Shown: in pieces, positions 3,001 through 59,290 of the stretch
How the letters are laid out: every line of letters begins with the position of its first letter
Position numbering within the stretch: the stretch's first letter is position 1
NCBI GenBank assembly: GCA_021234155.1
Contig: JAJEKV010000003.1
Location: 32,161,166-32,225,165, forward strand
Direction of reading: 5' to 3'
Source: Isoetes taiwanensis
Lineage: Eukaryota; Streptophyta; Lycopodiopsida; Isoetales; Isoetaceae
DNA: 64,000 bases
Program-made: the position numbers and the translations under genes
Notes under the pieces: model-generated
Database searches by the model: none
What the model was told of the DNA's origin: nothing
Seen by the model: the letters and a program-made list of their open reading frames with translations, nothing else

Positions 3001-3959
3001 TGGACGATTCAAAGAACAAGCTGCAGAAGAGCACAACTCGGAGGAGTATAGCCAAAGGAATCGCCCTGACCTCAAGAGGCGCCTTCAAATAGCTTCAAGT
3101 ATCATGAAGGGGGAGCGATTACCGCCCGAGAAACGAGGATCGAGGAAGCGAACCCGAAATGTCGAAGCATCAGCGACCACCACACCTTTAGTTAGAATGT
3201 GATGCAAAGCGTGTTGTGCCATAGCCGACAAACATCGGAGGGCCCAAGTACATCAACAAGTACCGAGTGCAATGGTGGCGATACAAATAGGAGGATATGG
3301 ATCGTCAACACCATTGCACCGGGAGGAACACCGATGACATTGCCAAGGAGTAGGTGTGCAACTCGGAGGGAGGCACAAGGGGGACCTAATAGCTCTAGTA
3401 GTAATTGTAATTATGTAAGTTATATGCTTTGCATATATAGTTCCCTTGTTATTCCCCCCCATAGCGTAACAGATCAAAGGAAGAGATGTCAGGCAATTTG
3501 CAGGGGTGAAGCAATCAACATCCTCAACACTCTTCGGGCAACAAGAGGACTCGATGTATGAGACGTCGATGGAGTCGAAGAAACAATATCGGATACAGAG
3601 TCGTCCTTTAGCCGCCAAGACAAAGAGTTCAAGATGAAAGATCTTTTTCAACGGCGCCACCTTCAAGGCTTTTGAAAAGCGGCATGGAAGATTTCAAGTG
3701 ATCAACTACACCATCAAGCCACTAGCAATGAGCGACTCGGAAGAACGTCACCTTGCTACTTCAAGCAGGCAACGAGTGGATGAGCTTCTAGCAAGGTCAA
3801 GGATCTAAGGCCATGGGGCCTAGTAGGTTAAATGTAGGGATGATAACATCCATATTGGGATTAGAAGGCATTGTTAGATATTCTCGCCGAAAGGATTGCC
3901 CCAATATTGAGCTAAGCGTCAAGTATTGGGAAGGAAACGCATAGGAGTAACTAAAATTA
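1..3959. other. Degenerate purine-rich sequence without an intact gene
   Basis: The plus strand is purine-rich and broken into short open stretches, the longest about 225 codons at 735-1412. None of the conceptual products shows a domain I recognise; they are rich in Arg, Lys and Ser and look like translated decay. The composition resembles the gag-side half of an old LTR retroelement, but I found no LTR, primer site, protease or RT motif. Possible TATA-like stretches near 1755 and 3430 are not tied to any gene. I regard the segment as an eroded repeat. Confidence 0.4.
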
Positions 3960-3967
3960 TACACGAT
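3960..3967. repeat. Left 8-bp target site duplication of the hAT element
   Basis: TACACGAT lies directly outside the left terminal inverted repeat and is repeated exactly at 9536-9543 outside the right one. Eight base pairs is the duplication length of hAT transposons. Confidence 0.93.
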
Positions 3968-5792
3968 CAGGGTTGCCCTTAAGCCCAAATTTTGATAGGT
4001 GTAATTTAGAATATAAGGCGAATCTTAGCTTTTTTTGGTTAGTTATGTTGGCGAATTTTTTCCGAGCTTCGATAAAAGTTATAGCAACCTTGGCGAATCT
4101 TTCATTCGTCGAGCGATGGAATATATGCTTTTTGCCCAAGTAAAATTTGGGTTTGCAATTTATATCTCTTAAGTCCCTACACACAATTGTAAGACATAAT
4201 GAATACACATGCATGTTACTCCACATTGGTGTATATATCTTCACAAGAGAAAGGTCAAGCTATTTATCGTCAACAACAAAAACGTAAATCACAGCTATCT
4301 ACTGGTACCCCAAGGCATTAATTTTTATATCAATTGCCTTCAACATCCATAATGCAATTGAGCAATAAAATGCTTAGATCATGCAGTTTCTACATCGAGA
4401 TAATTAGTCATTAGAAAAACAAATAATACCAAATCCAACAATTGGTGCTTATGCGAGATCTTAAGTTTTCGAATAGATGCCTGAACCCTAGATTTGTACC
4501 ACAAAATCTAACCTCAGTCGTCGTCACCAATCTAAAAAGTTTGATGTAAGGATATTTGTGGAAACAATTGAATTGAATTGTGGAAACAATTGTTATATAT
4601 TGAATTGAATATGTTTGTGGCAGACGTAAGGGCCAGGATACTGCAAAATACAAAAAATCGAAACATGTTATTTGGGATCATGGAAATTTCCTATTTGCTA
4701 TTCTTATATAGCAAAAAATCAATCGAATAGTTAAAGCATTTGGGTTCGACGACCTTAACTTCGCATTCAAAGTGCCGTCTCAACGTTTCCCAAAGCCGGA
4801 TTGCTTAAATAACATACAGAAACAACTAGTCGGATGAGTCAGATCTATTAAATCGATCTGTATTTGGCTTTTGCAGATGTTTAACATTGCAGAATAGCTC
4901 TTTCTCCTATCAGATCTACAGTCAAAGGAGCTTCGAAAACGAATCAATGCCAAAGCTACAGTGTTTTCACTGTAGCAAAATATTTTAATGGTGTTTGATT
5001 TTGTCAGGAACATAACAACATGGAAAACATTACAGATACTATCCACGAACTCTTGCACTCTCCTATTTCTGATTATAATTTAACTTCTACATGCACTAAC
5101 AATCATTATCAATCAAGTTCAGGCTACTGTGGCACTGCATTTGGGCAAAAATAATAGCAACATAACAATAGTCACCACAGAATATGATCAAATAAGAACA
5201 TTTTCCTGCAATAATTAGAACCTTCAACCTGTTTTAACTTCAAAATGCCAGTTGCTTTGGGAAAGCCAGTTGCTTATGCACATGCACCTGGAGAATTATC
5301 TCAGACATCAAATATAACGTGTTTTCAACACGGAGAAATCTATGCCATGATTAATTTATAGACCAGTTAGATAACAGGGAAATTACTGTACAACAACATT
5401 GCATGCTTGTCAAAACACTTCCAAATTTTAAAAATCAGTCTGGTTCACAACATGTTGCTGCTGCATGTCCTATCAGAATCTATCTGAAATATGTTGAACT
5501 CTTATTATGCTCTTATCATTTCTGAAATATCATTGTCAATAAACTACCAGCTCAGATAATGATAACTACTAGATGTCAATGAACTATCATTGTTCTTATC
5601 ATGCTGAACTACCAGCTTCTAAAACCTATACTGCAGGAGATGGTTCTCTTGTTTCATTTTGCGCTCCATCCATCTGAAACTTGAGGCACTACAGCAGCAA
5701 GACTACTAGAGCATCCTTGAGTTTTAACACATGATTGATTTTCTCTTCTATCTTTTGAATCCCATAATGCTAATGCCCGCTCATATGGAAAG

Positions 5793-8569
5793 TCATTCAC
5801 TGAATAGGTGCAAGTATATGCACGTAGGACGGATGTCTAAACTTTTGTTCAACCTATTGCGTACTTTATTCTTGAGGTAGCCCATGATGCTAAAAGTTCT
5901 CTCGTCTTCCACCGAACCTAAAATCATTGTCTGGCAAAGAATAACAAGCCTAAAATATTCTGGCATACGATCTTGAAGCACTTGGCTGCTACTAAGCCAT
6001 ACCCATAATCTTGTAATAGCACCAAATTCCTTGGGATCTTTGAGCTCACTGCATTGAGACCACATGGTTTCTCCGAAGCATTGCGATTGTTCCAGCAAAG
6101 CGTCACCATCTATTGCACCATTCAAGCTACTCTTGCCTACACCTAGAGAAACAGTTTTAGAAAAATGGTCTTTCAAAGTGTGTACCTTATTTCTGAAATC
6201 CTTTTGTACCACTTCAAGCGGCTTTGCGCTGATCCAATACTGTGGATACACAATGGACATTGCATCCAATAATTCATCTCTTGGAAAACGTTCTGCTATT
6301 TCTGCTTTCAAAGTAGTAGCTATCTTTTTGAGATTTTGCCTCACGGTTAAAATGATCTCTGGAAATGCATCTTTAATGACAGGCAGTCGGCGCACAAGAC
6401 GCCCTTGAATTCTTCGTTTCTTCGTATACATCTACATACACATAGTGAAACTTTAGTAAACAAATGAACAACAAAATGAATGATAAATAAATGCATACAC
6501 TGCTCTGTGAGGATGTGGAATAGACAACCTGCACTAATCTGGAATGCACTTTCATGCATATTTTATCCGCGGCATCAACTTCCAAAATGCTTTTGTTGCT
6601 ACCAATGTCAATTAAATTGTTCCATATCACAAACTTCTCCTTATCATAAGGCACATCGGAGAAGTAGGATACATAAATTCAAAGCAATGCATGCCATCTT
6701 CGGGCTGTTACATACTCAAAGAATATACATCGCGGCGCTTTTTGAGCAAGTTTTGTCAAAAAATTCATCTCCTTCAACATCGGCAACATGCCTTAACAAT
6801 AAGCAAACAACCAAATTTTCAGAAAGCTTGAAATATGTCCTATTAAACAAATGAAGTACCTGCTAAGGTCAACAAGGTCTCTAGATCCACGAGTCGTGCT
6901 AGTAAATCTCTTTGGTTTTCAGCCTCTCTTTTCCTTGTTTGGACGCAAGTTTATCCATCAACCCAACCAGGGAAGGATATTCTTGAAATAAACGTTGTGC
7001 AGGCTTATACAACGAGATCCATCTTGTACTCACAGTATTTAGAAGCTTATTGCCTTTAGTTAGACCTGCTGCCATCTTCTTGAACTTTCGAAATCTGCAC
7101 TACACTACAGCAGAATCTTAGTATCATGAAAATGAAACAGGAAATCATGAAACAGGAAATCATGAAACATCCAACTGCTTACCTTTTCGAGCTAACGACA
7201 AAAAAGGTATAAGTCTCCTTTATTAAATTCTCAAACTTGTTGACACACTCAAAGGTGTCAACAATCTTATATGCCAAGTTCATTCTATGTGCCATGCAAT
7301 GGATGCCAAGTGCATAAGGTGCCAAGCTTGTTTGGATTTTCACACTGAGGCCATTTCGGCATCCTTGCATAACAGAGCAACCATCTAGGCCGATGCAAAC
7401 AAGTTTCTTTGCAATGTCAACTGCAGACAGCCCCAAGATTCTATCAAAGCTATCTTGAACTATCACATAAATATTCTCCGCATTTGCATTTGATTGTAGA
7501 CGTGTGATTCCAACATAGCGGGCACACCTAACAAAGTTTTTCACATAATATACGGTCATACACAACCATGAAGAGTTGTCTTTTTGCGGTAGCCGTCTAG
7601 AGAGAAGGCAAAGTAATCACACCCCACGTAGCTCCTCACGCAAATCTTCCTTTAGCACTTCATCAATACAATCCATGAAACATCCATCCACTTTGTTTTC
7701 GACCAATGCGATTTGGGAAAGTTAGGAATGGGCTGCAATTCCAAGATGTCTTTTCTTTGAGGATAATCTGTCATAGGTCTACCCCGCTTCAAGACATGGA
7801 AAAGCGCTTGTAGCTGCACTATCTTTCCTTGCAAACTCTTATCGCAAGCTTTTTGTAAAAACTTCTAATGGGAGATACTTTTATGATTTTGATCCTTTCC
7901 AACTCTTTTTTATATGCTTCCACATTTTGCAAATGCCTACACTCTTCCTTCGTTTTCCATCTTTGCACATTTGTTTCCTTCCCATCGACCATCTTCTTCT
8001 CATATATTTTACCTGCATGCTTCTCTATAGTATCCAACTTCAATTGCAAATCAACGTGGTGGCCTAACTTCCATGAGCATGCTGTACACCTTGCTCTAGT
8101 TTTTTTCTGTGGAAATCCATGCTCGTCTTTCTCGTCCAGTGGCTCTATGAATGGAAAGTCTCTAACCTAATGATCTTTGAACTCTCTTCCACTAACCCAT
8201 TGATCTGATTTTCTTTTTCTTTTACTGCCTTTGCTAATTTGTGCAGGTTTATCGGGATGGGAAAGGTTTTCTTGGTCATCTTCAACCCGATTGTTATCTG
8301 CATCAAATGTGGAATGGGCAAGGTTTTCTTGGTCATCCTCAACCCGGTTGCCATTTGCATCAAGTGTGACTTGTTGTGCATCACAATCCACATTTACAAT
8401 GATAATATCCTCATTTGTATTGGCTGCTGCATCATAGAACTTATCAACCCCGTTCAAAGAACCATTTTCACCTTTGTTGCATGGTCTGAAGAATGACAGA
8501 ATTCCCTTTGTCATATTGGAATGAAGCTTGATAAGAATTGGTCCTGAAATACAAATGCACACAAAGGCA
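5793..8569 (-). pseudogene. hAT transposase pseudogene (TTF-type zinc finger family)
   Basis: Read on the minus strand, the N-terminal piece (from about 8569, with Met before TKGILSFFRP) holds a basic patch KGSKRKRKSDQW. An in-frame TAG at 8167-8169 follows, then a TTF zinc finger (RCTACSWKLGHH, about 8055-8165). Next come GRPMTDYPQR and PNFPKSHWSKTKW (7700-7800). The core is at 7179-7565, with KLVCIGLDGCSVMQG and HCMAHRMNLAYKIV, the usual hAT catalytic-core signatures. The last piece, 5793-6431, ends with GSVEDERTFSIMGYLKNKVR, the hAT C-terminal dimerisation motif. At least three frame changes (near 7830, 7600 and between 7179 and 6660) and the stop break it. The family cuts and pastes DNA in the nucleus. 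The assignment is firm; exon limits are not. Confidence 0.85.
8250..8365 (-). repeat. In-frame 57-bp tandem duplication inside the hAT transposase
   Basis: Two adjacent copies of a 19-codon unit, both containing NRVEDDQENL, lie in the acidic linker between the N-terminus and the TTF finger. The duplication keeps frame, so it may have arisen while the gene was still functional. Confidence 0.75.
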
Positions 8570-10885: not shown

Positions 10886-10958
10886 AGGAGCCAGCAAAAA
10901 TCGGCTCAGGCATGTCGATTTGTGTAGATCTATAGCTTGCCTAGTTAAGTATAATCTA
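10886..10958 (+). mobile_element. Relic chromovirus, segment left of the nested insertion
   Basis: This stretch matches 21766-21834 of the younger element, including the end of the integrase/chromodomain frame (IGSGMSI) and the following non-coding bases. It stops at ATCTA, where the younger element has inserted, and the match resumes at 24265. It is therefore the left part of an older family member that served as target. Confidence 0.8.
10954..10958. repeat. Left 5-bp target duplication of the young chromovirus
   Basis: ATCTA precedes the 5' LTR and recurs at 24265-24269 directly after the 3' LTR. Five base pairs is usual for Ty3/gypsy integration. Confidence 0.88.
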
Positions 10959-11015
10959 TGTGACGTTCCAGCATAATATACGCCCCAATACGTATATTAT
11001 ACTGCCACGTCACAC

Positions 11016-11039
11016 GTACATGTCACAAGTGACATGTAC
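11016..11039. promoter_or_regulatory. Perfect 24-bp palindrome in the LTR U3
   Basis: Arm GTACATGTCAC and its exact complement flank AA. It is preserved in the 3' LTR at 22718-22741 and not evident in the older LTR at 25397. The position, about 170-190 bp upstream of the TATA box, suits a dimeric transcription-factor site; that role is inferred. Confidence 0.55.
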
Positions 11040-11206
11040 TTGAGAGTAGGACAACGTTGCACCTAGGAGCTAAAGGTTGCACCTAGGGGGCAACCTTGGA
11101 TGTTGGGTATGTAATTAAACATACACAACAAAAGGTTCCTTGTTCATCCATTTCCAAATGGCTTAAAGCCATTTGCCCATGTGGATGCCCTAACCTAGAT
11201 AGGGTC

Positions 11207-11214
11207 TATATAAG
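11207..11214 (+). promoter_or_regulatory. TATA box of the 5' LTR promoter
   Basis: TATATAAG is followed within 10-20 bp by AAAACCCTAG-type telo-box sequence. The same box is at 22909-22916 in the 3' LTR. Transcription of the element should start about 25-35 bp downstream. Confidence 0.7.
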
Positions 11215-12546
11215 GGCTAAAACCCTAGACCCTAGCTCTCCTTTCACTTTGCCAATTAGGGTTTTCTAGAGCTTCCTTTCCTCTTTCGCATTTAGGGCTT
11301 TCCTGGGCCAATTCGGCCAAGGTAAGGCTCGAAATCGCATTGCCGACTCGAAAAGTCGGTTGCACAACAAAGTTCTTGAGTAATTTTGTCCTCGGCAAGA
11401 TCAGGAGCATGGATGCCTTCCAAGGATCAGGAGCAAGCCAAGGAGCAGGTATCTAGTTGTTCTATTGTGCAAAACCGTCTTTAGGCATGGCAATATGCCG
11501 GTTTAGTATGTTAGATCATCTCTGGAAGTCTTGTAGATCCCTAGATCTGAGACTCTAACGAATGAACCTAACATTGGATGTTAAGTAGATAGATTGATAT
11601 GATTATCTCTGTTCTGTGATATTGTATGTATTCTACTCTGTGATCTCCTTGTTGTAGGAAGGGGGGTAGAGACCTAAAGGCTGTGTAGAAGATGCTCCTA
11701 GCATAGCACCTTAGTTCCCACATAATTGCGGCCCGTGCACAGGAGCCCACCTGGCTGTGGGTGAAGGGGCAAGGCCGGTTGATAAGGAGGAACTTGTCTC
11801 ATCGCGGACTGACCCCTCTGGTAGTAAAGCCTATCGGGGGTCTTTGCTGGCTAGGCTTAATAGCTTGTCACTGCGTGTGGGCAAGGTATGAGCTCGACAC
11901 TCGTGGGGTGGTGGATATGACCTTCCAGTGAGTTCAAGTCGAATACGGGCAGTGGCCCTCTAGCCGCCTGCGATGAGCATGGATACCTCTGGAGGAGAGG
12001 CAGCTCTCTTCCTGCCTCATCGGGGTTGGGGAGATGCAACCCAGCAGTAGTAGCCCCTCTGGCTACTCACCCGGCAGGCTACGGCCAAGTCCCAACACTT
12101 TTCGACCTACTACGCAAAGTGTGCGGGGAGGGGCGGATGGAGTGGACTACCCTAAGCCATGTTCTATGCCAGCCAAATCCATTGCCATGAATTCTGTCTG
12201 CAATGAACTCTGGAGGCCTAGCCGTCAGTCATCCCCCTTGAGTCTGAGCCCTGGGTAGGATCCCTCCTTTGTATTATTGTTATGAAGGTATTGCTGACTC
12301 TGTGATGTTGCTATTGTTATGGTGATTGTGTTGTATATTATTGGTTGTGCTCACGTTTGTTTGTTACGCTTCATGAGAATAGGTCGATCCGATGGAAGGC
12401 GGATGAATGACACATCCACTCTTCCCTTGCTGGCTCGCCCCCCATGGGAGTGGAGTGGTGGATGGCCCTGTCGAGGCGGTTTGCCGGGGGAATGCTCCTC
12501 CCAAAATGCGATGCGGGCATCATTATAAGGAGTAGGGGCGTCACGG

Positions 12547-12558
12547 TGGTATCGGAGC
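12547..12558 (+). promoter_or_regulatory. Primer-binding site for initiator Met-tRNA
   Basis: TGGTATCGGAGC starts two bases after the 5' LTR. It differs at one base from TGGTATCAGAGC, the plant Ty3/gypsy and copia site complementary to the 3' end of initiator Met-tRNA, which primes minus-strand DNA synthesis. Confidence 0.88.
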
Positions 12559-12755
12559 ATGATCTTGGCATCCAAGATCGAGGCAGCCATTTCTCCCTTA
12601 GGACTAACAGTAGATTCGAGTCTTGGGGTATAGCCACCCAAGCAAGAGCTTCGAACAATTGGGAAATTCCCAATTTCTGGGTAGATTTTAGTTCCATGAT
12701 AGGTTGCTAGTGAAGTATAACATCTTTTCCAACCTAAATTGCCAAAAAAAATAGG

Positions 12756-12821
12756 CCACCCCTCACAGAGTGCGCCCAGCACCATTCGGTTTCGCCAAAC
12801 ATGGCGCCTTGTGTGAGTGGT
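12756..12821 (+). repeat. Hairpin repeat A, upstream of the H3-like gene
   Basis: The outer arms are CCCCTCACAGAGTGCGCC and GGCGCCTTGTGTGAGTGG. The inner stem is GTTT/AAAC around CGCC. It is the first of five related hairpins in the element leader. Confidence 0.8.
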
Positions 12822-12962
12822 TGACCTCCGTTGACATAGTTAGGTGTCCCAATTAATTAAGATAATGGTGTAGTTTGGCTTATTCCCTTAGTTCTAGATA
12901 GGTTTGTATGTTATAAGACTAAGAACCTCCCTGTAAATTGTAAAATAGCCTTGGAAACAGTC

Positions 12963-13035
12963 GACCCCTCACAGAGTGCGCCCAGCACCATTCGGTTGGT
13001 AATCCAACCTGGCCCAGGCGCACTGTGTGAGTGGT
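12963..13035 (+). repeat. Hairpin repeat B, upstream of the H3-like gene
   Basis: The outer arms are CCCCTCACAGAGTGCGCC and GGCGCACTGTGTGAGTGG. The inner stem is GGTTGG/CCAACC around TAAT. It starts about 205 bp after repeat A; the inner stem differs from A but still pairs. Confidence 0.85.
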
Positions 13036-13149
13036 GGGTGTTTTGGAGTATGGTGAACCCAGATGAATGCCTTGTACCTTCGCTAATGCCCTAGTTTTTT
13101 TTTTTTTCCCCATATGAATTGCAGGTCCCAACCCTAAATCCCACCTCCC

Positions 13150-13250: not shown

Positions 13251-14410
13251 ATGGCACGGACAAAACAGACAGCCCGCAAGGTTGTGCCACCTGGTTATGT
13301 GAGCGCCCAGGAGCGAGCCGTCCGACAGAAGGCCAGACGGAGGCAGGTGCACATCGGGGAAGAGGAGGCACCGGTTGAACTAACCCTAACCACGAAGAGC
13401 AGAGCAGTATCGGAGCACCTTGATCGGGAGTGGGACGCGGGCGGGCGGAGCTGCAGAGGGAGATCTTCGGGATAATGAAGAACCTGGAAGTAAAGGAACC
13501 GAAGAAGAAGAAGAGGGAAAGAGAAGAAGGCGAAGAAATCCAAGCATGAAGGCCTAAGGAAAAAGGAAGAGCTAAGAAAGAGGAGGGAGGAGAAGGAACG
13601 TAAGAGGGAAGAAAAGGAGGAAGCGCAAAGAGGAGCGTGGGAGAGGGTGAGAGCAGAGAAGGGTAAGGACCCGAAGTGCCATGAGAAGCCAAGAAGAAGA
13701 AGATACCGGCCGCAAAGCTAGAACTATACAGGAGCCGGATCCCCGAAGCTCCCCATCTTCGCCCCGACCAACCCGAGGAGGGAGCGGAGGACACGAGCCA
13801 GGAGAGACTTCGGCCCTTCAATCCAATATACGGAGGATGAAGACCCCCGGGCTAATGCAACCGCAAATATCCTAAAATGGCCGCCAAGCACCCCAAACAA
13901 AGACTCAAGAAACCAAGGCCGCAGAGGGAGTCCTATATAAAAAACGGGACTTGCAAGACTGAAAGGGGATTAAAGGAGTATACCGCACATGAAAATGCAC
14001 GAAGAATACTCCAAATATTAAGAAGAAAGAGTGAAGACCATTGAGGGAGGTCGGCCAACGAAAGAAGAACACGTGAAGCTGCCCCGGAACCGCCAACCCC
14101 TCCAGAAGAAGCCGATGAAAAGGCCGTGGACTCAAAATTCAGCGAGGGCGCCCAAGAAATTAAGCACTTCAGCAGAGCTATGGCTTCCTCATTCCCGAGC
14201 CCCTTTGCACGCCTAACGAGGGAGATTTTGCGGGGAGTTCGACCCATCCAAACGGGTCACGGACGACATGTTGCTTTCGACTGCAGAGGCGTCGGAGGCA
14301 CATCATTACATTACCGAAGACTCATTGCGTGTGCTCAACACGCTAAGAGAGTGACTTGTATGCCCAAGGATATTAGACTAGCTCAGTTTATTAAGAAGGA
14401 GGGCCCCTGA
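13251..14410 (+). pseudogene. Histone H3-like protein encoded inside the chromovirus (frameshifted)
   Basis: The ATG at 13251 opens MARTKQTARK, identical to the first ten residues of histone H3 and including the Lys4 and Lys9 equivalents. The frame then reads VVPPGYVSAQ and a basic segment to a stop at 13473. In the same frame, 13530-13720 encodes a charged KHEGLRKKEELRKRREEK-type coiled segment. A histone fold follows at 14150-14407: QEIKHF (alpha-N), PFARLTREIL (alpha-1; H3 has PFQRLVREIA), DDMLLSTAEASEA (alpha-2) and CAQHAKRVTCMPKDIRLA (H3 has CAIHAKRVTIMPKDIQLA), ending at TGA 14408. There is one extra G near 14234 and one missing base near 14325, besides earlier breaks. The fold aligns to H3 almost without gaps; the ~270-codon insert between tail and fold is foreign to H3. 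It could be a captured host H3 variant or a gene native to this element family. EIKHF is also reminiscent of CENH3, but the C-terminus is closer to canonical H3. Confidence 0.85.
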
Positions 14411-14554: not shown

Positions 14555-14624
14555 CCCCTCACAGAGTGCGCCCCAACCCATTCGGTTTGCAAACCGATCC
14601 CACCCTGGCGCACTGTGTGGGTGG
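14555..14624 (+). repeat. Hairpin repeat C, upstream of the acidic gene
   Basis: The outer arms are CCCCTCACAGAGTGCGCC and GGCGCACTGTGTGGGTGG. The inner stem CGGTTT/AAACCG around GC is perfect and differs from repeats A and B. Confidence 0.85.
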
Positions 14625-14754
14625 TTGAGCATGGTTTGGTGCCAAATCTTGCCTAAATGCAGAAAGTAGGTATATTATTCGACCTAACTCATCCCAGTTA
14701 GTAGGAATTGACCCCTAATCTGTCCAAATTGGCCAACGCCGAGTCAAATGGAGC

Positions 14755-14830
14755 TCCACCCCTCCACGAGTGCGCTTGGACCCATTTGGTTTGGAATCGA
14801 TTCCAGTGAGGCGCCTTTGTGTGAGTGGTG
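14755..14830 (+). repeat. Hairpin repeat D, upstream of the acidic gene
   Basis: About 202 bp after repeat C. The left arm is changed (CCTCCACGAGTGCGC) and the right arm is GGCGCCTTTGTGTGAGTGG. The inner stem is GGAAT/ATTCC around CG. Confidence 0.75.
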
Positions 14831-14964: not shown

Positions 14965-15039
14965 CCCACCCCTCACGAGTGCGCCCCAACCGGTTCGGTT
15001 TGCAAGCCGATCCCACCTGGCGCCTTTGTGTGAGTGGTC
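14965..15039 (+). repeat. Hairpin repeat E, upstream of the acidic gene
   Basis: About 210 bp after repeat D. The arms are CCCCTCACGAGTGCGCC and GGCGCCTTTGTGTGAGTGG, with inner stem CGGTTT/AAGCCG including a G-T pair. Confidence 0.8.
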
Positions 15040-15289: not shown

Positions 15290-16680
15290 ATGCGTCATCC
15301 CCGGCTCCTCGGTGCTCATGGCCACTTCTTCATTCAAGCGATAAGTGCAGCGCCCACGGACTCTCATGTGGGTGAAGGCGACATCGAATCATCTTCGGTG
15401 TCTTAGAGAGGGAACTTGACATTGAGGCCACCATCAACGCCACTCCCTTCTACCGGAACATCATATGCGAGTTCCATGCCAAGATGGGACCCTTCCGGTA
15501 GAACTCCCCACCTTGTGTAGGGTATTTTGCACCTAACACTGCCCTCAAGTCAGCCCTGCAAGATATCCCAAATGTAGATAAGTACTTAGAGAATAAAGCA
15601 GTCCGCCTTCCCAACTACATGTCCATCTCTGTCAATAGGAGGAGGTACTTCTCCTATCTGGCCATTTGTAACCATCTTTCTATCTCTTCGGGGTCAAACC
15701 CAGATAGGGGAACCCTCAGTGCAGCCCTTAGAAGTTGAACCCATAGCCATGGCCGCAGCAGAGGAGGAACGGATGCGACTCGAGTACGAGCAAGAAGAAG
15801 AGGAGGAGGATGAATATGAATCAGACCCGGAAGACCTGGATCTAGAACAAGAGAGGCAGCAGGCGGAACAGCAGATCCAAAACTTCGAAGAGGGACTGCG
15901 AGCAACAAGAAGAGCCCCACCACTCGGGGAGGGCATTACAAGCTTGACGCCGGTGTTCATAGCAGGCGAGGCATATCTAACCCTTCACGACATCAAGAAT
16001 CTTCCACAGTGCCGCGACAGAGGCCTTAGGGTGGATGAGATTTTACACCTTTTACGACAGCAGGCAGATCTCGACGACTTCATCGATCGAGAAGCTCAGG
16101 ACTTCCCTATCAGCATAAGAGAAGCCAGGACCTTCACCGGCGAGACATCATCAGATATAGAAGCTTACGCAGGCATCAGACAGATGATGGCCGAAACGGA
16201 ATTGCCCTCGGAGGAGGAGTTCATGGCAATTCAGGAACAAATGGGCATCAAAGGCAAGTCCACATCAGCATTATTACCGAGCTCGCCAACACCCATCACG
16301 AGGCGGCATGGAGGCGGTATCAACCTAAGGAGGCTGGTGCACCAAGACTTGAGAGCTAGAGGAGATACCGGTGGATGACTTGGCGGGAAGGCACTGGGGC
16401 AACTTCCTCGTCTGCCGAAGAAAGCGGGGGCATGATAAAGGCGCTCGGATATTACTGCCGTTCTTCTTTGGGCCGGAAGAATAGCGGTCATTCACCGCCA
16501 ATTTAGTAAAGGGTGAAGAAGGGGTCTTTATGCTTATCGCCCTCTCGGGGTTTGGACACCATGCACGATTACCTCCAAACATCGACTATGTTGTCACGAT
16601 CAAGAGAGCGATTGCATTGACCATCTTCGACTTTGCAATCCCTTATAGGCGGCGAGATACAAAGCGATGACGGCCAGCGT
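15290..16680 (+). pseudogene. Second extra chromovirus gene: acidic protein of unknown function
   Basis: Frames are broken, but three pieces belong together. The first (15398-15690) reads ELDIEATINATPFYRN, ICEFHAKMGPFR and RLPNYMSISVNRRRYFSYLA. It vaguely recalls the plant retroelement-associated 'putative plant transposon protein' domain, where a PFY...REFYA-type motif is usual; this is a weak match by eye. The second (15719-16378, 219 codons open) has a very acidic run EQEEEEEDEYESDPEDLDLE, a Gln/Glu coiled segment and then DLDDFIDREAQDFP. The third (16350-16680, shifted frame) has DLAGRHWGNFLVCRRKRGHD. Acidic stretches are typical of histone-binding proteins, and the neighbour is an H3-like gene, but no chaperone fold is recognisable. 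Function is unknown. Confidence 0.5.
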
Positions 16681-17170: not shown

Positions 17171-18250
17171 ATGACTGAATGTGCCCTTGCGGAAACGCTT
17201 GACTGGCGAACAAAGGTAAAAGGAAGAGAAGCGGTAGGAGAAGATCTCCCTAGCTTCCGGGATCCTCAAGCTCCATTTCCGGATACGGATTCCGGTGATG
17301 GAAGAGGTGGAAGAAGAGGCCGAGCTCACGGGCAGGATCCAAACCGTGTGAGGGCAGATCCGCGGTACCGAGTAAGAAAGTTGGCTCAGCCCCAGTAATG
17401 TGTGGAAAGCCGGGGAAGTTAGAGCGTTTTCGGGGGGAAAACAGTCCGAATGGAAGCGAGAGGCATGGCTGGATGAGATGAGTGAGTATGGCAAGCGCCA
17501 ATGGCATGAAAGACAAAAGACAAAGGCGGGGGTAGCAACAGCAAACCTCAAAGGGTGCAGCGAATTTGGTGGAAGGGTATGCCAAAGCACATGGGCGAGG
17601 GACGGTTGCAAATTCAGGAAGTTCGCCAAGGCGTTCAAACATCATTATGTACCAAGAGAACATAAGTGCAACATGATGCAGCAGTTTTATAGGCTGCAAC
17701 AAGGCAACAAATCAGTCCAAAAATACACGGAGGAATTCATGAGACTAAGGCTTTATGTGCCAAAGTTGAGTGAAAAGCATCTGCGGTGGAAGGCTATATT
17801 GAAGGCTTGAGCGATGAGATCCGCTTAAGCTTGTAAGGGCAATAAACCCGAAGTGTCGGTCGAGGAGAAGCAAAGGCCATAAGTTTGCAAGGAACAGGTC
17901 CACAAGAGCAGGCATCAAGGCAGCAATATTTCCAGGATAAGGGGAAGAGCACAGGGGGCTATAGCCCAAGGGCGGCAAGCCCAGTAGCTAGCAAAGCGGT
18001 ACAATTCAAATTATGGGAAGCAAGGCAGCATAAAGTAGTGGCAAGCGGGAAAAAAAGCAGGTAAGCTTCAAGGAGCAAGGAGCCAAGTCTAACTACTCCC
18101 AAGCGGTGAGGCAATTTTGCTAGATCCATTCCCAAGGAAAAGAAGCGGGAATGTATAGAGAAGCGGTGTGTTTCGGATGCTTCCGGCCGAACATAGGACC
18201 AACAATTGCCCCCGATTATGAATGCGGCATTGGCGAGCGCTGGGATGGGA
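17171..18250 (+). pseudogene. Chromovirus gag (capsid and zinc knuckle), broken
   Basis: The first open piece (17171-17398) starts MTECALAETLDW and is rich in Gly and Arg. The second (17400-17810) contains FAKAFKHHYVPREHKC, then FYRLQQGNKSVQKYTEEFMR and LRLYVPKLSEK. These match the capsid motif of Ty3/gypsy gag (F...Y.P, L.QG..SV..Y..EF..L). Around 18150-18215 a decayed CCHC knuckle survives as a Cys-rich start and HRTNNCP in shifted frames. Gag would package the RNA. Stops at 17396 and 17808 and frame changes break it. Confidence 0.75.
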
Positions 18251-18383
18251 GACACCATCGGACCTTGAGGCGATGGCGAAGCGCGGGATTACATCCATGG
18301 TGAGTGTCACATCTTTTGCGACTATTGATCTGAGGAAATGAGAAAGTCGGTATAAGGTAATCTCAGCGAAGGAAAAAGCCAAG

Positions 18384-18725
18384 AAATCCTTTATAGTATT
18401 GATAGACTCTGGCAGGCGGTCATAATTTTGCATCCCCTAGGATGGTAAGCATGTTGAAGTTAAAGCCGTTAAAGTCCAAGCCCGGGCGGTGGTGTTAGCC
18501 AATGGAGCAATTAGGCATCTGGCCGAGGGAAGAGAATAAACTTCAATGTAGACTTGCCGGTGTTAATGTTGCATTGGGCCGGAAGTCATGAATATAGGCA
18601 AGTATGATCTCATTATTGGAATGGAATATCTTGGACCAGCGGGGAGCAATCATCGATTGTGGGAAGCGTAAGGTGACCTTAACAACGCCAGAGGGCAAAG
18701 TCATCGAAATCCGCGGTAAAAAGTA
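18384..18725 (+). pseudogene. Chromovirus aspartic protease, broken
   Basis: VLIDSG at 18396-18413 is the retropepsin active-site motif. Downstream, LIIGMEYLG (about 18610-18640) and, one base out of frame, IIDCGKRKVTLTTPEGKVIE (18645-18705) are the usual end of gypsy protease. An in-frame stop follows the active site and a frameshift lies near 18645. Confidence 0.75.
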
Positions 18726-18959
18726 ACCCCAATCATGCAATGCATGAGTAGCGAAAAATTGCTTAAGTGCATAAGAAAGCAGCGGTGGCCTATCTCCTTA
18801 AGCTTGAGCTCCAAGATCGAGGAGCGGGGAGAAATAAAGAGATCAAAGAATCTAGCAAGCTTCCGAGGCCAATAGCAAAGTTGATCGAGGAATTTCACGA
18901 CTTGTTCCTCGATGAGATTAAGCGCAACGCCCCTATAGAGGAGTCGAGTGTGAAATAGC

Positions 18960-19780
18960 ACTTGAACACTGGGGCCGAAGCCTACAAGCAAGGCACCTTA
19001 TAGGATGTCAACCGAGGAGTTGACATGAGTTAAAAAAGCAGTTGCAAGAATTGCTAGACCTAGGGTTCATAAGACCTAGTGTCTCCCGTTCGAACCCCTA
19101 TTCTCTTTGTGAAGAAGAAGGATGGCAGCCTTAGGATGTGCATTGATTCTGCTTGATTAAATAAGCACACCATCAAAAATAAGTATGCCTTGCCTAGGTC
19201 GGATGACTTAATGGATCGATTTGCGGGGAGCAAAGATCTTCTCAAAATAGATCTCGGATCGAGGATATCACCAGATTAGGATCAAGGAGGAAGACATTCA
19301 TAAGGCAAATAAGGAGGACAAGATATGGGCACTATGAGTTCCACAGTTATGCCCTTTGGACTGTCTAATGCACCAACAACATTCATGAGGTTAATGAGCG
19401 GCGTCTTCCATGCGAATTTCTAGATTCCTTCATCATAGTCTTCTTCGACGATATCTTGGTTTCTGACAAGTCACGTGGAGGAGCACGCCCAACACTTGAG
19501 GAAGGTGCTTGAAAAGTTAAGAAGGCATCAACTCTTTTTGGCGGTTATCGAAGTGCCGCCAGAAGCGGAAAGAGTGGAGTACTTGGGGCACGTGATCACA
19601 GCCAGAAGGCATTTCCACGGCACCTCGCGAAGATAGAAGGCGTGATCGGCTGGCCGGCACCAAAGAATACGATGAAGTCGGGGAGCTTCCTAGGGCTAGC
19701 AGGCTATTATAGAAGATTTGTGAAGAATTTTGCCAAGGTAAGCGCCATTAACGGATCTCACAAAAAGGTGGGAAGATAAA
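18960..19780 (+). pseudogene. Chromovirus reverse transcriptase, broken
   Basis: PILFVKKKDGSLRMCIDSA (19097-19153) is the first conserved RT block, ended by a TGA. LNKHTIKNKYALPR and DDLMDRFAGSKDLLKIDLGS (19157-19255) follow. MPFGLSNAPTTFMRLM (19350-19400) and VFFDDILV (19438-19461), equivalent to the catalytic Y/FxDD box, are intact. After it come HAQHLRKVLEKLRRHQL-type sequence and the thumb. Several stops and shifts occur. Confidence 0.85.
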
Positions 19781-19799
19781 AGATTGGGCAGCCCATCGG

Positions 19800-20255
19800 C
19801 AAAACAAGGCCCGAAAGCATTTGAGACATGAAGGAAGCTTTGACGGCGGCGCAAGATGTGGTCTTGCCGGATCCGACCAAAGATAAGCTCGTGGCAACAG
19901 ATGCTAGCGAGGATAGCGGCGGCGGGATCCTCATGTGAGGGAGGAAAGAGTAGTGGCCTATGATTCTAAGAAGTTGAGCGGCCGAACAGCGCTACCAACG
20001 CATGATCGGGGAGCTCCGGCTATAGTAAGGGCTTTAAGAATTTGGAGGCATTATTTATTGGGAAGAAAATTCAGTTAGACACGGATCATCAAAGCCTCAA
20101 TATATATTTCGCTTGGCCAGCTCCTTAATTTGAGGCAAAGGAGATGGATGGAATTCTTGGAAGAATATGACTTTGAGATAAGTTACAAGCCGGGGAAGCT
20201 CAATGTGGTTGCGGATGCCCTTTCCGAGGAAGCCATTGGCAACCAGAATTCATTG
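19800..20255 (+). pseudogene. Chromovirus RNase H, broken
   Basis: LVATDASEDSGGGILM (19888-19935) carries the first catalytic Asp of the RNase H domain. DTDHQSL (20077-20097) and EEYDFEISYKPGKLNVVADA (20161-20220) are the standard closing motifs, the last being GK.N.VADALS. The frame changes between them. Confidence 0.8.
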
Positions 20256-20459
20256 TAACGCCATATCAACACTTGTAAGTGAGTTTGGCAAGAAGATTGA
20301 GGAAACATTGCCGCGGACCTGGACTTCAAGGAAGTTTGGGGTGAGCCTTTCCAAAGAGGCGGGGACCGACAAGGAAAGGGAGATGTTCGGGCACTACAAG
20401 AAGGAAGGGAACTTGCTATATTATAAAACAAATTGTGTGTACCAAAATCTTCGCAGTTA

Positions 20460-21120
20460 GAAAGCTTATTTTGAATGATACACACAATAGTCCCATAGCA
20501 GGGCATCACGGGGGTTCATGAAGATATATTTCAAGATTAGAAGCGATTATTATTGGCCCGGCATGAAGAAGGAAATAGCAAGATATATTAGAGAGTGCGG
20601 ATATGCCCGTGAGACAAAGGCGAACGACTCAGGATCAGGTGCCTTGGAACCATTGCCCGTGCCAAATGCTAAGTGGGAGGTGATAAGTATGGATTTTATT
20701 ACGGGACTCCCAAGAGCGCAAGGGGCAAAGATGCCTTGATGGTGGTAGTAGATAAGTTGTCAAAGATGGCACACTTTGTGCCGTGCGAGGACAACAGATC
20801 TGACATTAGACCACGACCAACCTATTTGTTAAGGAGATTTTTTAGGCTCCATGGCATGCCAAGGGAGATAATCTCGGATAGAGACTCCAAGTTTATGAGT
20901 GCCTTTTGGCGGGACCTATTCACCACCATCAGGGCGAAGCTTTTCGATGAGCGCGGCATATCATCCCCAAGCGGATGGTCGGGCGGAGAGGACCAGCGGG
21001 ATCATCGAAGATATGTTAAGAAGCTATGTATGGAACAAGCAATCCAAGTGGGATGATTTCATCTACCTAGTAGAGTTTTGCCAACAACACCAAGCGAGGA
21101 GTCATCGCAGATGAGTCCTT
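20460..21120 (+). pseudogene. Chromovirus integrase zinc finger and catalytic core, broken
   Basis: YYWPGMKKEIARYIRECGYA (about 20550-20605) is the HHCC-finger region. Catalytic-core signatures are MDFITGLP (near 20690), ISDRDSKFMSAFWRDLF (near 20870) and HPQADGRAERTSGIIEDML (20960-21020), which give the D, D and E positions. The pieces fall in different frames, so no intact enzyme can be made. Confidence 0.85.
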
Positions 21121-21313
21121 TTATGATTAATTACGGGTATCGGTGTCTTACCCCGGATACTTGGCACAACCACTGTGTCCAAGGTGGAAGTCTCCAGCCA
21201 GATGCTTTGAAATGCAAGACTTGGTGGAGGAAGTGAGAGGATATCTCCTTGCAGCAAAGAAGCGGAGGCGAAAAGCATCGTGAGACAAGCATAGGGCGGT
21301 AAGAGAATTTGAA

Positions 21314-21808
21314 GTGGGAGACAAAGTGTGGTTGAAGATCAAAGTCAAGCAGGCCAAGCTCCGCATCGGCAATTGCAAGAAGCTTGCTCCAAGATGGGCT
21401 GGACCCTTCAGAATAGAGAAGAGAGTAGGTAACCAATCCTACAAGTTGGACTTGCCAGCACATCTTAAGATACATAAGGTTTTCCACGTAAGTTTGCTAA
21501 AGAGGCACACCCCAAACCCCGAGGAAATATTGGAGACAAATGAGTTTTTAGAAATGACGGACGAGCATATTGAAATCGTTCCGGAAGTCCTTCTTAATAG
21601 ATCTTATAAGAAGACAAGAAGGTCAAAATTCCTCCAATATCTTGTGAAGTGGAAGCACTTACCAGTGGAAGACGCTACGTGGGTACTTGAGTCAGATCTC
21701 AAGAAACAGTACCCCGAGTTTATGGAGCAATCCAAGGGTCGGCTCGTCACCGAAGTAGTCGACATCAGCAACCAAGAAATCGGCTCAGGCATGTCGATTT
21801 GGGTTTAG
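21314..21808 (+). CDS. Integrase C-terminus with chromodomain (open 164-codon piece)
   Basis: This 3' piece of pol is open. It starts GDKVWLKIKVKQAKL, then LAPRWAGPFRIEKRVG (the GPF/Y module), IHKVFHVSLLKRH, and a chromodomain from about codon 85 to 140: VPEVLLNRSYKKTRRSKFLQ, YLVKWKHLPVEDATWVLESD. Chromodomains at this position define chromoviruses and direct integration into heterochromatin; in studied elements some bind methylated H3 Lys9. The first aromatic-cage residue position appears substituted (VPEVLL...), as in many plant chromodomains, so methyl-lysine binding is uncertain. It ends IGSGMSIWV, TAG. Confidence 0.85.
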   Translation: MGDKVWLKIKVKQAKLRIGNCKKLAPRWAGPFRIEKRVGNQSYKLDLPAHLKIHKVFHVSLLKRHTPNPEEILETNEFLEMTDEHIEIVPEVLLNRSYKKTRRSKFLQYLVKWKHLPVEDATWVLESDLKKQYPEFMEQSKGRLVTEVVDISNQEIGSGMSIWV

Positions 21809-22660: not shown

Positions 22661-24264
22661 TGTGGCGTTCAAAGCATAATATAGCCCTATCACATTATAT
22701 TATACTACCCGTCCTGCGTACATGTCACAAGTGACATGTACTTGAGAGTAGGACAACGTTGCACCTAGGAGCTAAAGGTTGCACCTAGGGGGCAACCTTG
22801 GATGTTGGGTATGTAATTAAACATACACAACAAAAGGTTCCTTGTTCATCCATTTCCAAATGGCTTAAAGCCATTTGCCCATGTGGATGCCCTAACCTAG
22901 ATAGGATCTATATAAGGGCTAAAACCCTAGACCCTAGCTCTCCTTTCACTTTGCCAATTAGGGTTTTCTAGAGCTTCCTTTCCTCTTTCGCATTTAGGGC
23001 TTTCACGGGCCAATTCGGCCAAGGTAAGGCTTCGAAATCGCATTGCCGAACTCGAAAAAAGTCGGATTTGCACAACAAGTTCTTTGAGTAGCAGGTGTCC
23101 TCGGCAAGATCGGGGAGCATGGACGCCTTCCAAGGATCAGGAGCAAGCCAAGGAGCAGGTATCTAGTTGTTACATTGTGCAAAACCGTCTTTAGGCATGG
23201 CAATATATGCGGTTTAGTATGTTAGATCATCTCGGAAGTCTTGTAGATCCCTAGATCTCGAGACTCTAACGAATGAACCTAACATTGGATGTTAAGTAGA
23301 TAGATTGATATGATTCTCTATCTACGTTACGTGATATTGTATGTATTCTACTCTGTGATCTCCTTGTTGTGGGAAGGGGGTAGAGACCTAAAAAGGCATG
23401 TAGAAGATGCTCCTAGCATAGCACCTTAGTTCCCACATAATTGCGGCCCGTGCGGGGAGCCCACACATTTTGTGGGTGAAGGGGCAAGGCGGTTGATAAG
23501 GAGGAACTTGTCTCATCGTGGGGTGACCCCTCACGGTAGTAAAGCCTATCGGGGGTCTTTGCTGGCTAGGCTTAATAGCTTGTCACTGCGTGTGGGCAAG
23601 GTATGAGCTCGACACTCGTGGGGTGGTGGATATGACCTTCCAGTGAGTTCAAGTCGAATACGGGCAGTGGCCCTCTAGCCGCCTGCGATGAGCATGGATA
23701 CCTCTGGAGGAGAGGCAGCTCTCTTCCTGCCTCATCGGGGTTGGGGAGATGCAACCCAGCAGTAGTAGCCCCTCTGGCTACTCACCCGGCAGGCTACGGC
23801 CAAGTCCCAACACTTTTCAGCCTACTCTGCAAAGTGTGCATGGGAGGGGCGGATGGAGTGGACTACCCTAAGCCATGTTCTATGCCAGCCAAATCCATTG
23901 CCATGAATTCTGTCTGCAATGAACTCTGGAGGCCTAGCCGTCAGTCATCCCCCTTGAGTCTGAGCCCTGGGTAGGATCCCTCCTTTGTATTATTGTTATG
24001 AAGGTATTGCTGACTCTGTGATGTTGCTATTGTTATGGTGATTGTGTTGTATATTATTGGTTGTGCTCACGTTTGTTTGTTACGCTTCCGCAGATAGGTC
24101 GATCCGATGGAAGACGGATGAATGACACATCCACTCTTCCCTTGCTGGCTCTGCCCCCCATGGGAGTGGAGTCAGGTGGATGGCCCCTGTCAGGCAGCTG
24201 CCAGGGGGAATGCTCCTCCTTCGAGTACGATGCGGGCATCGTATAAGGAGTAGGGGACGTCACA
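22661..24264 (+). repeat. 3' LTR of the young chromovirus
   Basis: About 1.60 kb, from TGTGGCGTTC to ACGTCACA. It has the same 24-bp palindrome (22718-22741), TATA box (22909-22916) and downstream telo-boxes as the 5' LTR. ATCTA follows. Confidence 0.92.
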
Positions 24265-24269
24265 ATCTA
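24265..24269. repeat. Right 5-bp target duplication of the young chromovirus
   Basis: ATCTA, identical to 10954-10958. The older element resumes here. Confidence 0.88.
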
Positions 24270-25396: not shown

Positions 25397-26906
25397 TGTG
25401 GCGTTCGATGACGATATCTACGGTCTCAAGGCATTATACCGTCTTTGCGGAAATCACACGCATACCGCGCGATCCAATCGGCGTAATGCGCCCGGCGTGT
25501 ACCCAAGCAAAGGTCGCCCTAGGGGGCAACTTGCAATGGTGCGCACACTTAGCAATGCGCGCACTTTTAGACCTTTAACCCATTAAAGGTAGACCAAGGG
25601 TCATGGAAACCCTAAACCTAGCGATAGCCTACATAAGGCACCAAACCCTAACTTTCCCTTTTAAGCCCACAGACCTTAGGAGCTCGATTCGGCGCTGAGG
25701 AGTCAATTCCAACTCCACGATCTGTCAAGTGCGCCCCGGCTTGTCGGATCGTCCTCCGACTTGCATTTGAAGCGAGCGAGAGACATGGACACCTTTGGAT
25801 CGAGAGGAGTGAACCCGGGGATGGGTATTTAGTCGATTGAATAGCCTAAACCTTATTCCGACCTTGAACCCGGTGGGTTTAGCCTATTAAATCACCCCTA
25901 GTAGCCAGCGGATCCGAGATTGACTCTAACTAAAGAACCTAACTCTATGTATGATATAGATTAGTTCTTATTCTTTAGTTCTATGATGATGTGATGGGCC
26001 GGATGAATTACGTGAACTCCTTTGTATTGGGAAGGGGGTAGAGACTTGAAGCTTAGTAGATGATGCTCCTAGATAGTCCCTCTTAGTGCATTACTAGATT
26101 TCGGCTGTGCACAAGAACCACACACTGGTTGTGGGTGAAGGGGGGCGGGCCCGGCTAAGGAGGAGGTTCGTGTTACGACTCTTGAGCGATCCCTCCGGTG
26201 TGTAAGGCCTACTGGGGGGATCATTGTGACTAGGTCTAATGGCTTGCCAGCTGCGTGTGGGCAAGGCATGGGCTCGACACTCGTGGGGTGGTGGATATGA
26301 CCTTCTGTGAGTTCAAGTCGAATAAGGCGGTGGCCCTCTAGTCACCTTGAGTCAGCATGTAGATCTCTCGGAGGGAGTGATCCCTACACGCCCCATCGGG
26401 GCTGGGGAGATGTAACCCCGGTAGAGCGTAGCCCCTTTGGCTATGCACCCGTGGCTCTGATCCAGGTCCCAACCGTTTCGGCGTACTACGCAAAGTGTGC
26501 AGGGAGGGCGGATGGAGTGGACAACCCTAAGCCATGTTCTTATGCCCGATAAATCCATTGCCATGAATTACATGCGCAATGAACTCACGGAGACCCAAGC
26601 CGTCAGTCATCCCTTTGAGTCTGAGCCTTGGGTAGGATTTCCCATATGTATTGTGCTGATCTTTGTCTATGTAGATGTGATGGACCACCCTTCGAGGTGG
26701 ATATATGATGTTATGTTACTGACGTGTATGTTTACGCTTCCGCAGCTAGGTAGGCCCTGAGGAAGACGGGATAAAATGACCCCTTCACTCTTCCCACTGT
26801 GGACTCTAGGCGGTCACAGGGCCCTGTATCAGTGTGGAGCTGGTGCGGGGGATGAACTCCTGTTTGTACACGGTGCGGGCACCGTATACGAGTAGGGGAC
26901 GTCACA
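25397..26906 (+). repeat. 3' LTR of the relic chromovirus
   Basis: It starts TGTGGCGTTC and ends GGGGACGTCACA. It is colinear with the young LTRs but visibly diverged: the U3 palindrome is not evident and many substitutions occur. The R/U5-like half (from about 26030) is the best conserved. Confidence 0.82.
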
Positions 26907-58480: not shown

Positions 58481-59290
58481 ACAGAGCCAAATTACAGTTC
58501 TGGAGAGGGGAGGTTGCCCGTCTGTCCCCAGGTCCTTGGGAGAGGACTTTTGGGGCAAGCAGCTTCGGGGGGGTTTTTAGGGTCCGTGCTCTGGCGTCAA
58601 CACCACCCCTCCATGTCAAGACACGGCGCAAGGTCCCGGCCGAATCTGAAAAGGAAAGGGCCTCCTGGTGCCCAGTTCCCCTATCCGACTGTTGAATCCT
58701 CGATTCATGGGCACTTCTTCGGGAAGATCCAAAAGATTCCAAGATCGATTCGGGGGAACTTGTCAAACCGTGGAGAGTCCTGCGTGTGCGACCATATAGA
58801 AACTGGAGTGTTTTGTTGTTTGGGCACCACGGAGGCTCCGGAATGGCAATTCGACTTTGCCAAGTCGTCCAAAATGGCGAAATCACCCTAGGGAGCAATT
58901 ACAAGGTCAGTTTTGCAAAAGAAAGAAACACTCATGCCCTAGACGGCAGTATCCGCCATCCACATCATAGGCCAATTGACTACGAATGTGCTGGACATGA
59001 GCTACTTTGGCGATTCTTGGAGGAGAGGTGGTCTTCTGGCCTTGAAACTTGGTCCCCAGGGCAATGTCGATGTTCTGAGTCCATTTGCAGAGCCAAATCA
59101 AGATTTCGGAGAGGGGAGGTTGCCCATCCGTCCTCAGGGCCTTGGAGAGAGGACTTTTGGGGCAAGCAGCTTCCGGAGGGATTTTAGGGTCCGTGCTCTG
59201 GCATCAACACCCCTCCTCCACATCAAGACACGGCGCAAGGTCCTGGCCGAATCTGACAAGGAGAGGTGTTTGGACCCTAGTTCACATTTA
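58481..59290. repeat. Two direct copies of a ~210-bp GC-rich unit
   Basis: AGAGCCAAAT at 58481 and 59090 begins colinear blocks through GAGAGGGGAGGTTGCCC, GGACTTTTGGGGCAAGCAGC, GGGTCCGTGCTCTGGC and AGACACGGCGCAAGGTCC. The copies are about 605 bp apart. Open frames across them on both strands have no recognisable product. Confidence 0.7.

Follow-up and report, generated by a model that had tools for sequence, protein, structure and literature searches.

A putative histone H3 variant gene maintained in chromovirus retrotransposons of the quillwort Isoetes taiwanensis

An LTR-type element of 13.3 kb in the genome of Isoetes taiwanensis carries a histone H3-like gene between its primer binding site and gag. 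The element lies in a 64,000-nucleotide stretch of DNA, here called the window, and belongs to a family (family A) in which the gene is predicted to encode an H3 variant: the H3 N-terminus is followed by a long charged insert and by a histone fold in which key residues for dimer formation and DNA contact are retained. This H3 variant gene is almost certainly a gene of the element that is held under selection.

The window element and its H3 gene

Paired LTRs (110 differences per 1585 aligned sites, K2P 0.073) and a target-site duplication bound the window element (Table 1), as in Ty3/gypsy chromoviruses. The Ty3/gypsy order of gag, protease, reverse transcriptase (RT), RNase H and integrase was found in a copy from a related family (family B, copy L034/L035), and a chromodomain at the integrase C terminus is matched by Pfam Chromo in the window and in family B (E 6.3e-8) and is visible by eye in a third family, family C. 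On these sequence features, the window element is a member of a Ty3/gypsy chromovirus lineage. Its primer binding site resembles what we take to be the complement of the plant initiator tRNA-Met. The original prediction placed the gene inside such an element, and both termini, together with the ATCTA duplications on either side, could indeed be read. Elsewhere in the window, positions 26012–26638 share 79% identity with part of the LTR (11640–12261) and are possibly a remnant of a related element, and positions 58482–59266, away from the element, hold a 180-base direct repeat whose units are 88% identical and lie about 607 bases apart.

Table 1. Features of the element in the window (positions are those of the window)
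Feature	Position	Strand	Evidence or remark
Left target-site duplication ATCTA	10954–10958	.	Direct reading; right copy at 24265–24269
5′ LTR	10959–12545	+	Starts TGTGACG; 94% identity to 3′ LTR (BLAST)
Primer binding site TGGTATCGGAGC..., adjoining 5′ LTR	12547–12564	+	Direct reading
Two leader hairpins of about 72 nt	12757–12826, 12965–13038	+	Fold z-scores −2.0, −4.7
Element's H3 gene, broken in the window copy	13251–14410	+	Stop-free relatives encode 385–421 aa
H3 tail MARTKQTARK	13251–13280	+	Same as host H3; dN/dS 0.063 (14 stop-free copies), 0.085 (49 tails)
Lys/Glu-rich insert	13281–14125	+	dN/dS 0.33 after tail, 0.22 in Lys/Glu part, 0.12 and 0.12 in conserved stretches
H3 histone fold, pieces in two reading frames	14126–14410	+	Pfam Histone; dN/dS 0.068
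Three hairpins of about 72 nt, H3 gene to ORF2	14555–14626, 14758–14828, 14967–15039	+	Fold z-scores −5.3, −2.2, −3.6
ORF2 piece, extra gene before gag	15590–16375	+	BLASTP against family B ORF2: 29% over 105 aa, E 1.6e-4, weak
gag piece	17376–17807	+	Pfam Retrotrans_gag E 8e-11
gag-pol region, broken in the window	17394–21763	+	tblastn match with family B gag-pol, same order
Integrase core piece	20673–21053	+	Pfam rve E 0.0063, under cut-off
Integrase C-terminal part and chromodomain	21284–21808	+	Pfam SH3_Tf2-1 E 2.7e-22, Chromo E 1.2e-10
3′ LTR	22661–24264	+	Ends GTCACA; ATCTA (right target duplication) directly after

The ATG at 13251 opens the sequence MARTKQTARK, which is identical to the N-terminus of host H3, as the original prediction had stated. 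The predicted long Lys/Glu-rich insert between tail and fold was also found, and its more conserved end stretches are, in relatives, PPYPKWPSPKHPSD...YMKMHEEYSKYYEEH and IEGGRPTKK...KKPMKR. Three fold pieces follow in H3 order: PFARLTREIL (about 14204), DDMLLSTAEASEA (about 14266) and CAQHAKRVTCMPKDIRLA (about 14329). The original prediction had recognized these pieces but listed them out of H3 order. The fold lies 0.85 kb past the tail and ends at a stop at 14410. The fold pieces of the window copy are not in one frame: the first and third share a frame and the middle one is in another. Since the fold is split in this way and the insert has stops in every frame, the window copy as it stands is unable to make the protein.

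Even in this broken state, the fold is recognizable. The single piece at 14126–14407 matches Pfam Histone above the gathering score (E 3.8e-6), the piece at 14045–14407 gives E 1.2e-6, and a search of the PDB with the broken piece returned H3 chains, with the best match to H3.Y (E 4.3e-6). Together with the scores of a stop-free copy given below, these Pfam and PDB scores rule out a chance match to H3.

An additional open reading frame, ORF2, follows the H3 gene in family B copies L032 and L038 and in family C, and is absent from family B copy L034, in which gag is directly next. In L038, ORF2 lies at 3505–4833 on the minus strand; the family B ORF2 copy tested has no Pfam match at E values up to 1. 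The five hairpins in the window are related to one another, and a second family A copy has at least two before and at least two after the H3 gene; their arms were not found in the family B and C stretches examined, and a search of Rfam gave one match, far under the gathering score (E 0.48). The hairpins might separate the translation or processing of the H3 gene from that of ORF2.

Copies of the gene in family A and the selection acting on it

We searched the assembly of 1,658,258,908 bases in 1110 contigs for further copies. A DNA query covering the H3 region gave 386 first-look candidates; the 40 places scored are the window and 39 others at 80–86% identity, all matched over nearly the whole query. 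With a 3041-base query that comprises the leader, the H3 gene and downstream sequence, the H3 region was present in all 40 scored places, window included. Thirty-eight of these matched over almost the full length. In another, the first 525 query bases, ahead of the gene, were missing, and in the last the match was interrupted where the fold starts, by a gap of about 80 query bases. The original prediction had allowed for a one-off capture, with other copies lacking the region, and this is ruled out by the finding that the gene is missing from none of the 40. Because these are the best 40 of 1178 candidates and the ranking favours complete copies, the result shows that the gene is normal for family A, rather than that gene-less copies are absent. 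A second copy, C907 (L058, L074 and L075), aligns colinearly with the window, at 86–92%, from LTR to gag.

Intact relatives, which the original prediction had proposed to look for, proved to be common. A protein query with one stop-free copy, L044, gave 105 scored places that are 49–100% identical, many of them without stops; its 49,830 first-look candidates were probably inflated by the Lys/Glu-rich insert. Twelve open-frame copies that contain MARTK encode 385–421 aa, and a thirteenth open copy, L063, starts MACTKQTT and encodes 406 aa. Canonical H3 has about 136 residues with the tail joined directly to the fold, an arrangement found in none of families A, B and C. Given these lengths, and the 434–459 aa of families B and C, the product is an H3 variant rather than a canonical H3. 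A match in IMG/VR (L031) was set aside, as the contig carries phage-like genes by our own reading and the match is short and in another frame.

The fold of L044 matches Pfam Histone (PF00125) at E 1.9e-23 and PDB H3 at E 1.6e-21 without gaps through the fold, in agreement with the gapless alignment and the profile match anticipated from the window. The best 60 of its 176 PDB matches are all H3, which places the fold closer to H3 than to any other core histone. By comparison, NCBIfam gave only an archaeal histone, under cut-off, for a family A copy, and two matches under cut-off for a family B copy. The L044 fold is identical to host H3 at 46 of 89 residues. K56, R63 and K79 are replaced and L109 is Ala, and the residues kept are R69, R72, R83, D106, C110, H113, K115, R116, V117, T118, K122, D123, L126 and I130, which we take to serve in H4 pairing, dimer formation or DNA contact. 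An alignment by HMMER of the insert stretch before the fold with H3 residues 10–46, in which K36 would be kept, is not supported: in all seven copies tried, shuffled versions score equally, although the row for L070 is uninformative because its stretch was not recognized by the pattern. No reliable counterpart of K27 or K36 could therefore be placed in family A.

Selection was estimated for each part of the gene, as originally proposed, by pairwise Nei–Gojobori counting, with dS above 1. It is strongly purifying in the tail (residues 1–10) and the fold, and weaker in the charged insert (Table 1). In a set of 13 copies, dN/dS is 0.052 for the tail (bootstrap 0–0.171) and 0.069 for the fold (0.040–0.104); this set was defined as frames containing MARTK, which favours the tail, and adding L063 (MACTK) moves the tail from 0.052 to 0.063. 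Among 49 readable tails, dead copies included, A1–R8 gives 0.055 and position 9 alone 0.52. As a yardstick, the region from gag to early RT in family B yields 0.067 (three copies, one of only 224 residues), and the tail and fold are thus held about as strictly as the core proteins of a related element. The family A copies were taken from similarity-ranked lists, and most of them are matches that begin at the tail. This choice favours conserved tails and lowers dN somewhat; we do not think that, with dS so high, it could make neutrally decaying copies yield ratios below 0.1. The retention of both tail and fold suggests that the elements may use a home-made histone on host chromatin.

Tails were compared in 53 sequences, the window and 52 fetched copies, which were chosen from the lists of the H3-region DNA query and the L044 protein query, the latter mostly for tail-starting matches. 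Forty-nine are readable, with at most four mismatches to MARTKQTARK and at least five of the first eight residues; L055, L057, L078 and L087 are not. (In an earlier set, 31 of 33 family A sequences were readable.) T3, K4 and Q5 are unchanged in all 49, and the H3 residue is found at A1 in 47, R2 in 42, T6 in 46, A7 in 45 and R8 in 43. At position 9, 24 tails have Lys, 15 have Ile and 7 have Met; Thr, Gln and Arg occur once each, Gln and Arg in tails running out of frame (L046 and L052). Met or Ile thus stands at position 9 of an otherwise H3-like tail in 22 of the 49; the window itself has ARTKQTARK, and its own subfamily has Lys at position 9 and Val as residue 10. Codons vary silently at T3, K4, Q5 and Ile-9 (for Ile-9, ATC in 7, ATT in 6 and ATA in 2) and the residues stay, which indicates that selection acts on the protein and rules out a constraint on the tail at the DNA level.

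In a tree of the conserved segment and fold from which tail columns were excluded (30 of the 52 copies, with the L043 row long and partly out of frame), Lys, Ile and Met at position 9 require at least two changes, and the Met copies form one clade (support 99/97). When outside rows are included in a fold tree, the Ile and Met copies are nearest to the outgroups, with modest support.

Related lineages and the origin of the fold

A genome search with Pfam Histone gave 8705 first-look candidates, of which the best 150 were scored, all over the cut-off. The first 15 scored places are canonical H3 (L001–L015), and the next 15 fetched have an H3 fold that ends a longer frame, of either of two types that define families B and C; three more of the 150 lie within wider stretches. 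The frame is open throughout in six B and C copies (434–459 aa). Among the six wider B and C stretches, LTR pairs were seen in three and none in the remaining three, which may be cut short. Within the paired-LTR elements, the genes (L034/35, L036/37 and L039/40) lie between the 5′ LTR and gag; the H3 fold predicted in families B and C is therefore in the same slot as in family A. With a family B DNA query, 40 places were scored from 1706 first-look candidates, and the family B gag-pol shares 30–62% protein identity with that of family A and 39–86% with that of family C. In the family B leader, ahead of the H3 gene, L034 has an inverted repeat at 5718–5798 with 17-nt arms 47 nt apart.

Neither family B nor family C has the ARTKQ tail. 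Their proteins begin M[PS]RFKLT (B) and METPKQV (C), and their N-terminal domains can be aligned with one another; Histone is the only Pfam model whose cut-off is reached. The folds are closer to host H3 than that of family A, with 75 of 89 residues identical in B (L026) and 78 of 89 in C (L036), or 84–88% in one copy each. At the position of K36, B copies have Arg, and C copies have Arg (L036 and L039) or Lys (L019); further out, no safe alignment to H3 residues 9–30 was obtained. Family C has H87, as does host H3.3 (L015). For the fold, dN/dS is 0.051 in B (91 pairs) and 0.018 in C (3 pairs), with dS to host H3 saturated; the value for B uses 14 of 17 fold sequences, as L021 is truncated, L034 repeats L026 and L041 repeats L023.

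In an unrooted tree of folds with host H3 and CENH3, of the kind that the original prediction had called for, A, B and C each form one clade, and the source of A may have been either H3 or CENH3. Family A falls on the CENH3 side (support 94/93), B and C group together (79/61), and the grouping of all three families in a single clade is not rejected (p-AU 0.19). The CENH3 rows of this tree are two plant sequences entered by hand and, as the third, the fold taken from an H3/CENP-A chimera chain (7bxt). The family A fold also carries LIPRAPF at alphaN–alpha1, which resembles what we take to be the LIPxAPF of maize CENH3. In contrast to CENH3, with its longer loop 1, loop 1 of family A is of H3 length, and the fold aligns to H3 without gaps. 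No host CENH3 was recognized among the best 150 of 6960 first-look histone candidates, in which canonical H3 copies come first.

Possible roles of an element-borne H3

Transposon silencing works through marks on host histones, and position 9 of H3 is the site of the main silencing mark. We tentatively favour anti-silencing as the main role of the element H3. The variant would be made along with the other element proteins, enter the nucleus, pair with host H4 through the interface residues that are kept and be incorporated into nucleosomes, either on the DNA of the element or where it inserts. Host H3 able to carry silencing marks such as H3K9me2 would be displaced there, and the T3-K4-Q5 part of the tail would still be displayed to readers of active chromatin. 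In the K9I and K9M subfamilies, H3K9 methyltransferases could additionally be blocked. The element would thereby encode a chromatin-level counter-defence. This reading is favoured because selection in family A holds the H4-pairing and DNA-contact fold as well as T3-K4-Q5, and because position 9, which has no clear counterpart in B and C, is so often Ile or Met. That the variant enters nucleosomes at all is somewhat more likely than not, although the fused domain of more than 300 residues in B and C, or the long insert in A, may hinder assembly.

Replacement of a methylated H3 lysine by Met or Ile is known to inhibit the matching methyltransferase. The element protein may therefore be a natural ‘oncohistone’, in which Met-9 or Ile-9 H3 would poison H3K9 methyltransferases or give nucleosomes that refuse the mark and would in this way relieve transposon silencing, with the K9 subfamilies mainly replacing host H3 and the tailless B and C proteins reaching the same end by another route. 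We regard this fuller version as somewhat unlikely. A methyltransferase trap would not suit every copy, since the window's subfamily has K9 followed by Val10, and its K9 counts against the favoured role as well; the dN/dS of 0.52 at position 9 alone is a further point against.

The presence of a histone tail and an integrase chromodomain in one element, with the tail strongly constrained, could also mean that the element H3 is deposited at chosen sites and that the element's own chromodomain reads the tail there, preparing targets for insertion. We consider this unlikely. By eye, two of the three residues that we take to form the HP1 aromatic cage are missing from the A, B and C chromodomains, which makes the integrase chromodomain a poor candidate reader, and position 9 is Ile or Met in many A tails. 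Moreover, B and C have the chromodomain and no free ARTKQ tail, and for the favoured role this same lack means that reading of the tail cannot be a function common to all. The lack of the tail in B and C also counts against a decoy that never enters nucleosomes, whose tail would titrate H3K4 readers or modifiers or whose fold would titrate H3–H4 chaperones or free H4. Such a decoy would explain why T3, K4 and Q5 are invariant and why the H4-pairing surface is retained, but it has no obvious need of the DNA-contact residues that all the compared A, B and C copies retain, and we judge it improbable.

Those DNA-contact residues, the Lys/Glu-rich insert and the position of the gene ahead of gag would suit a basic histone-fold protein that condenses element RNA or cDNA in a virus-like particle or pre-integration complex. 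However, packaging would not need the exact T3-K4-Q5 epitope, the strongest constraint falls on the tail and fold rather than on the charged insert, and the family B gag already shows weak zinc-knuckle matches (E 0.005 and 0.04, under cut-off); this role seems improbable. Least credible is that a piece of host H3 or CENH3 was captured once and has been carried without function. The window copy is broken, as are many others, but this explanation is already contradicted by dN/dS far below 1 at dS above 1 in tail and fold separately, and by the presence of the gene at every one of the 40 places scored and, as a different form, in two related lineages.

The carrier itself is of a familiar type: like plant chromoviruses, it has LTRs, a primer site, gag, protease, RT, RNase H and an integrase with chromodomain. 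It differs in the H3 gene between primer site and gag, with ORF2 next in A, C and some B copies. Host H3 and H3.3 share the MARTKQTARK of family A and, to the extents given above, the fold, but they have 136 residues, whereas the element proteins have 385–459, with a long insert (A) or an N-terminal domain (B and C), and host H3 also differs from L044 at K56, R63 and K79 and from many A copies at position 9. Parasites that encode core histones are known from bracovirus H4, which has an added N-terminal part, and from giant-virus histones. These carriers are viruses of animals or protists; the present case involves an LTR retrotransposon, and its histone is H3. We know of no histone involvement in the anti-silencing activity of VANC proteins. 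VANC proteins of Arabidopsis VANDAL transposons are otherwise a parallel, as two papers (PMC5735166, PMC10398659) describe them as sequence-specific anti-silencing factors, that is, as plant transposon proteins that counter silencing of their own element.

A word search for ‘histone’ found none in the main text of the genome papers for I. taiwanensis (PMC8566536) and I. sinensis (PMC10541799). Among the titles and abstract openings listed in searches of an open-licence collection, outside which most subscription journals and preprints fall, none describes a retrotransposon-encoded core histone, consistent with the earlier remark that no established chromovirus family encodes an H3. For a retrotransposon gene that encodes a core histone H3 and is retained, we could find no known counterpart.

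If the proposed role is correct, the nucleosome itself would be a weapon in the conflict between transposon and host, and these elements would offer a natural way to test which H3 residues are required for silencing. From the Ile or Met at position 9 follows a sharp prediction about plant H3K9 methyltransferases. Histone genes could then be acquired by retroelements and retained in the long term. Element-borne sequences that resemble H3, possibly thousands of them (8705 first-look candidates, best 150 scored), might then also confound the annotation of histones and the mapping of H3 peptides in quillworts. Stop-free H3 frames of up to 567 aa that were not assigned to family A, B or C also occur among the best 150 each of 8705 and 6960 candidates, and more H3-bearing lineages may therefore exist.
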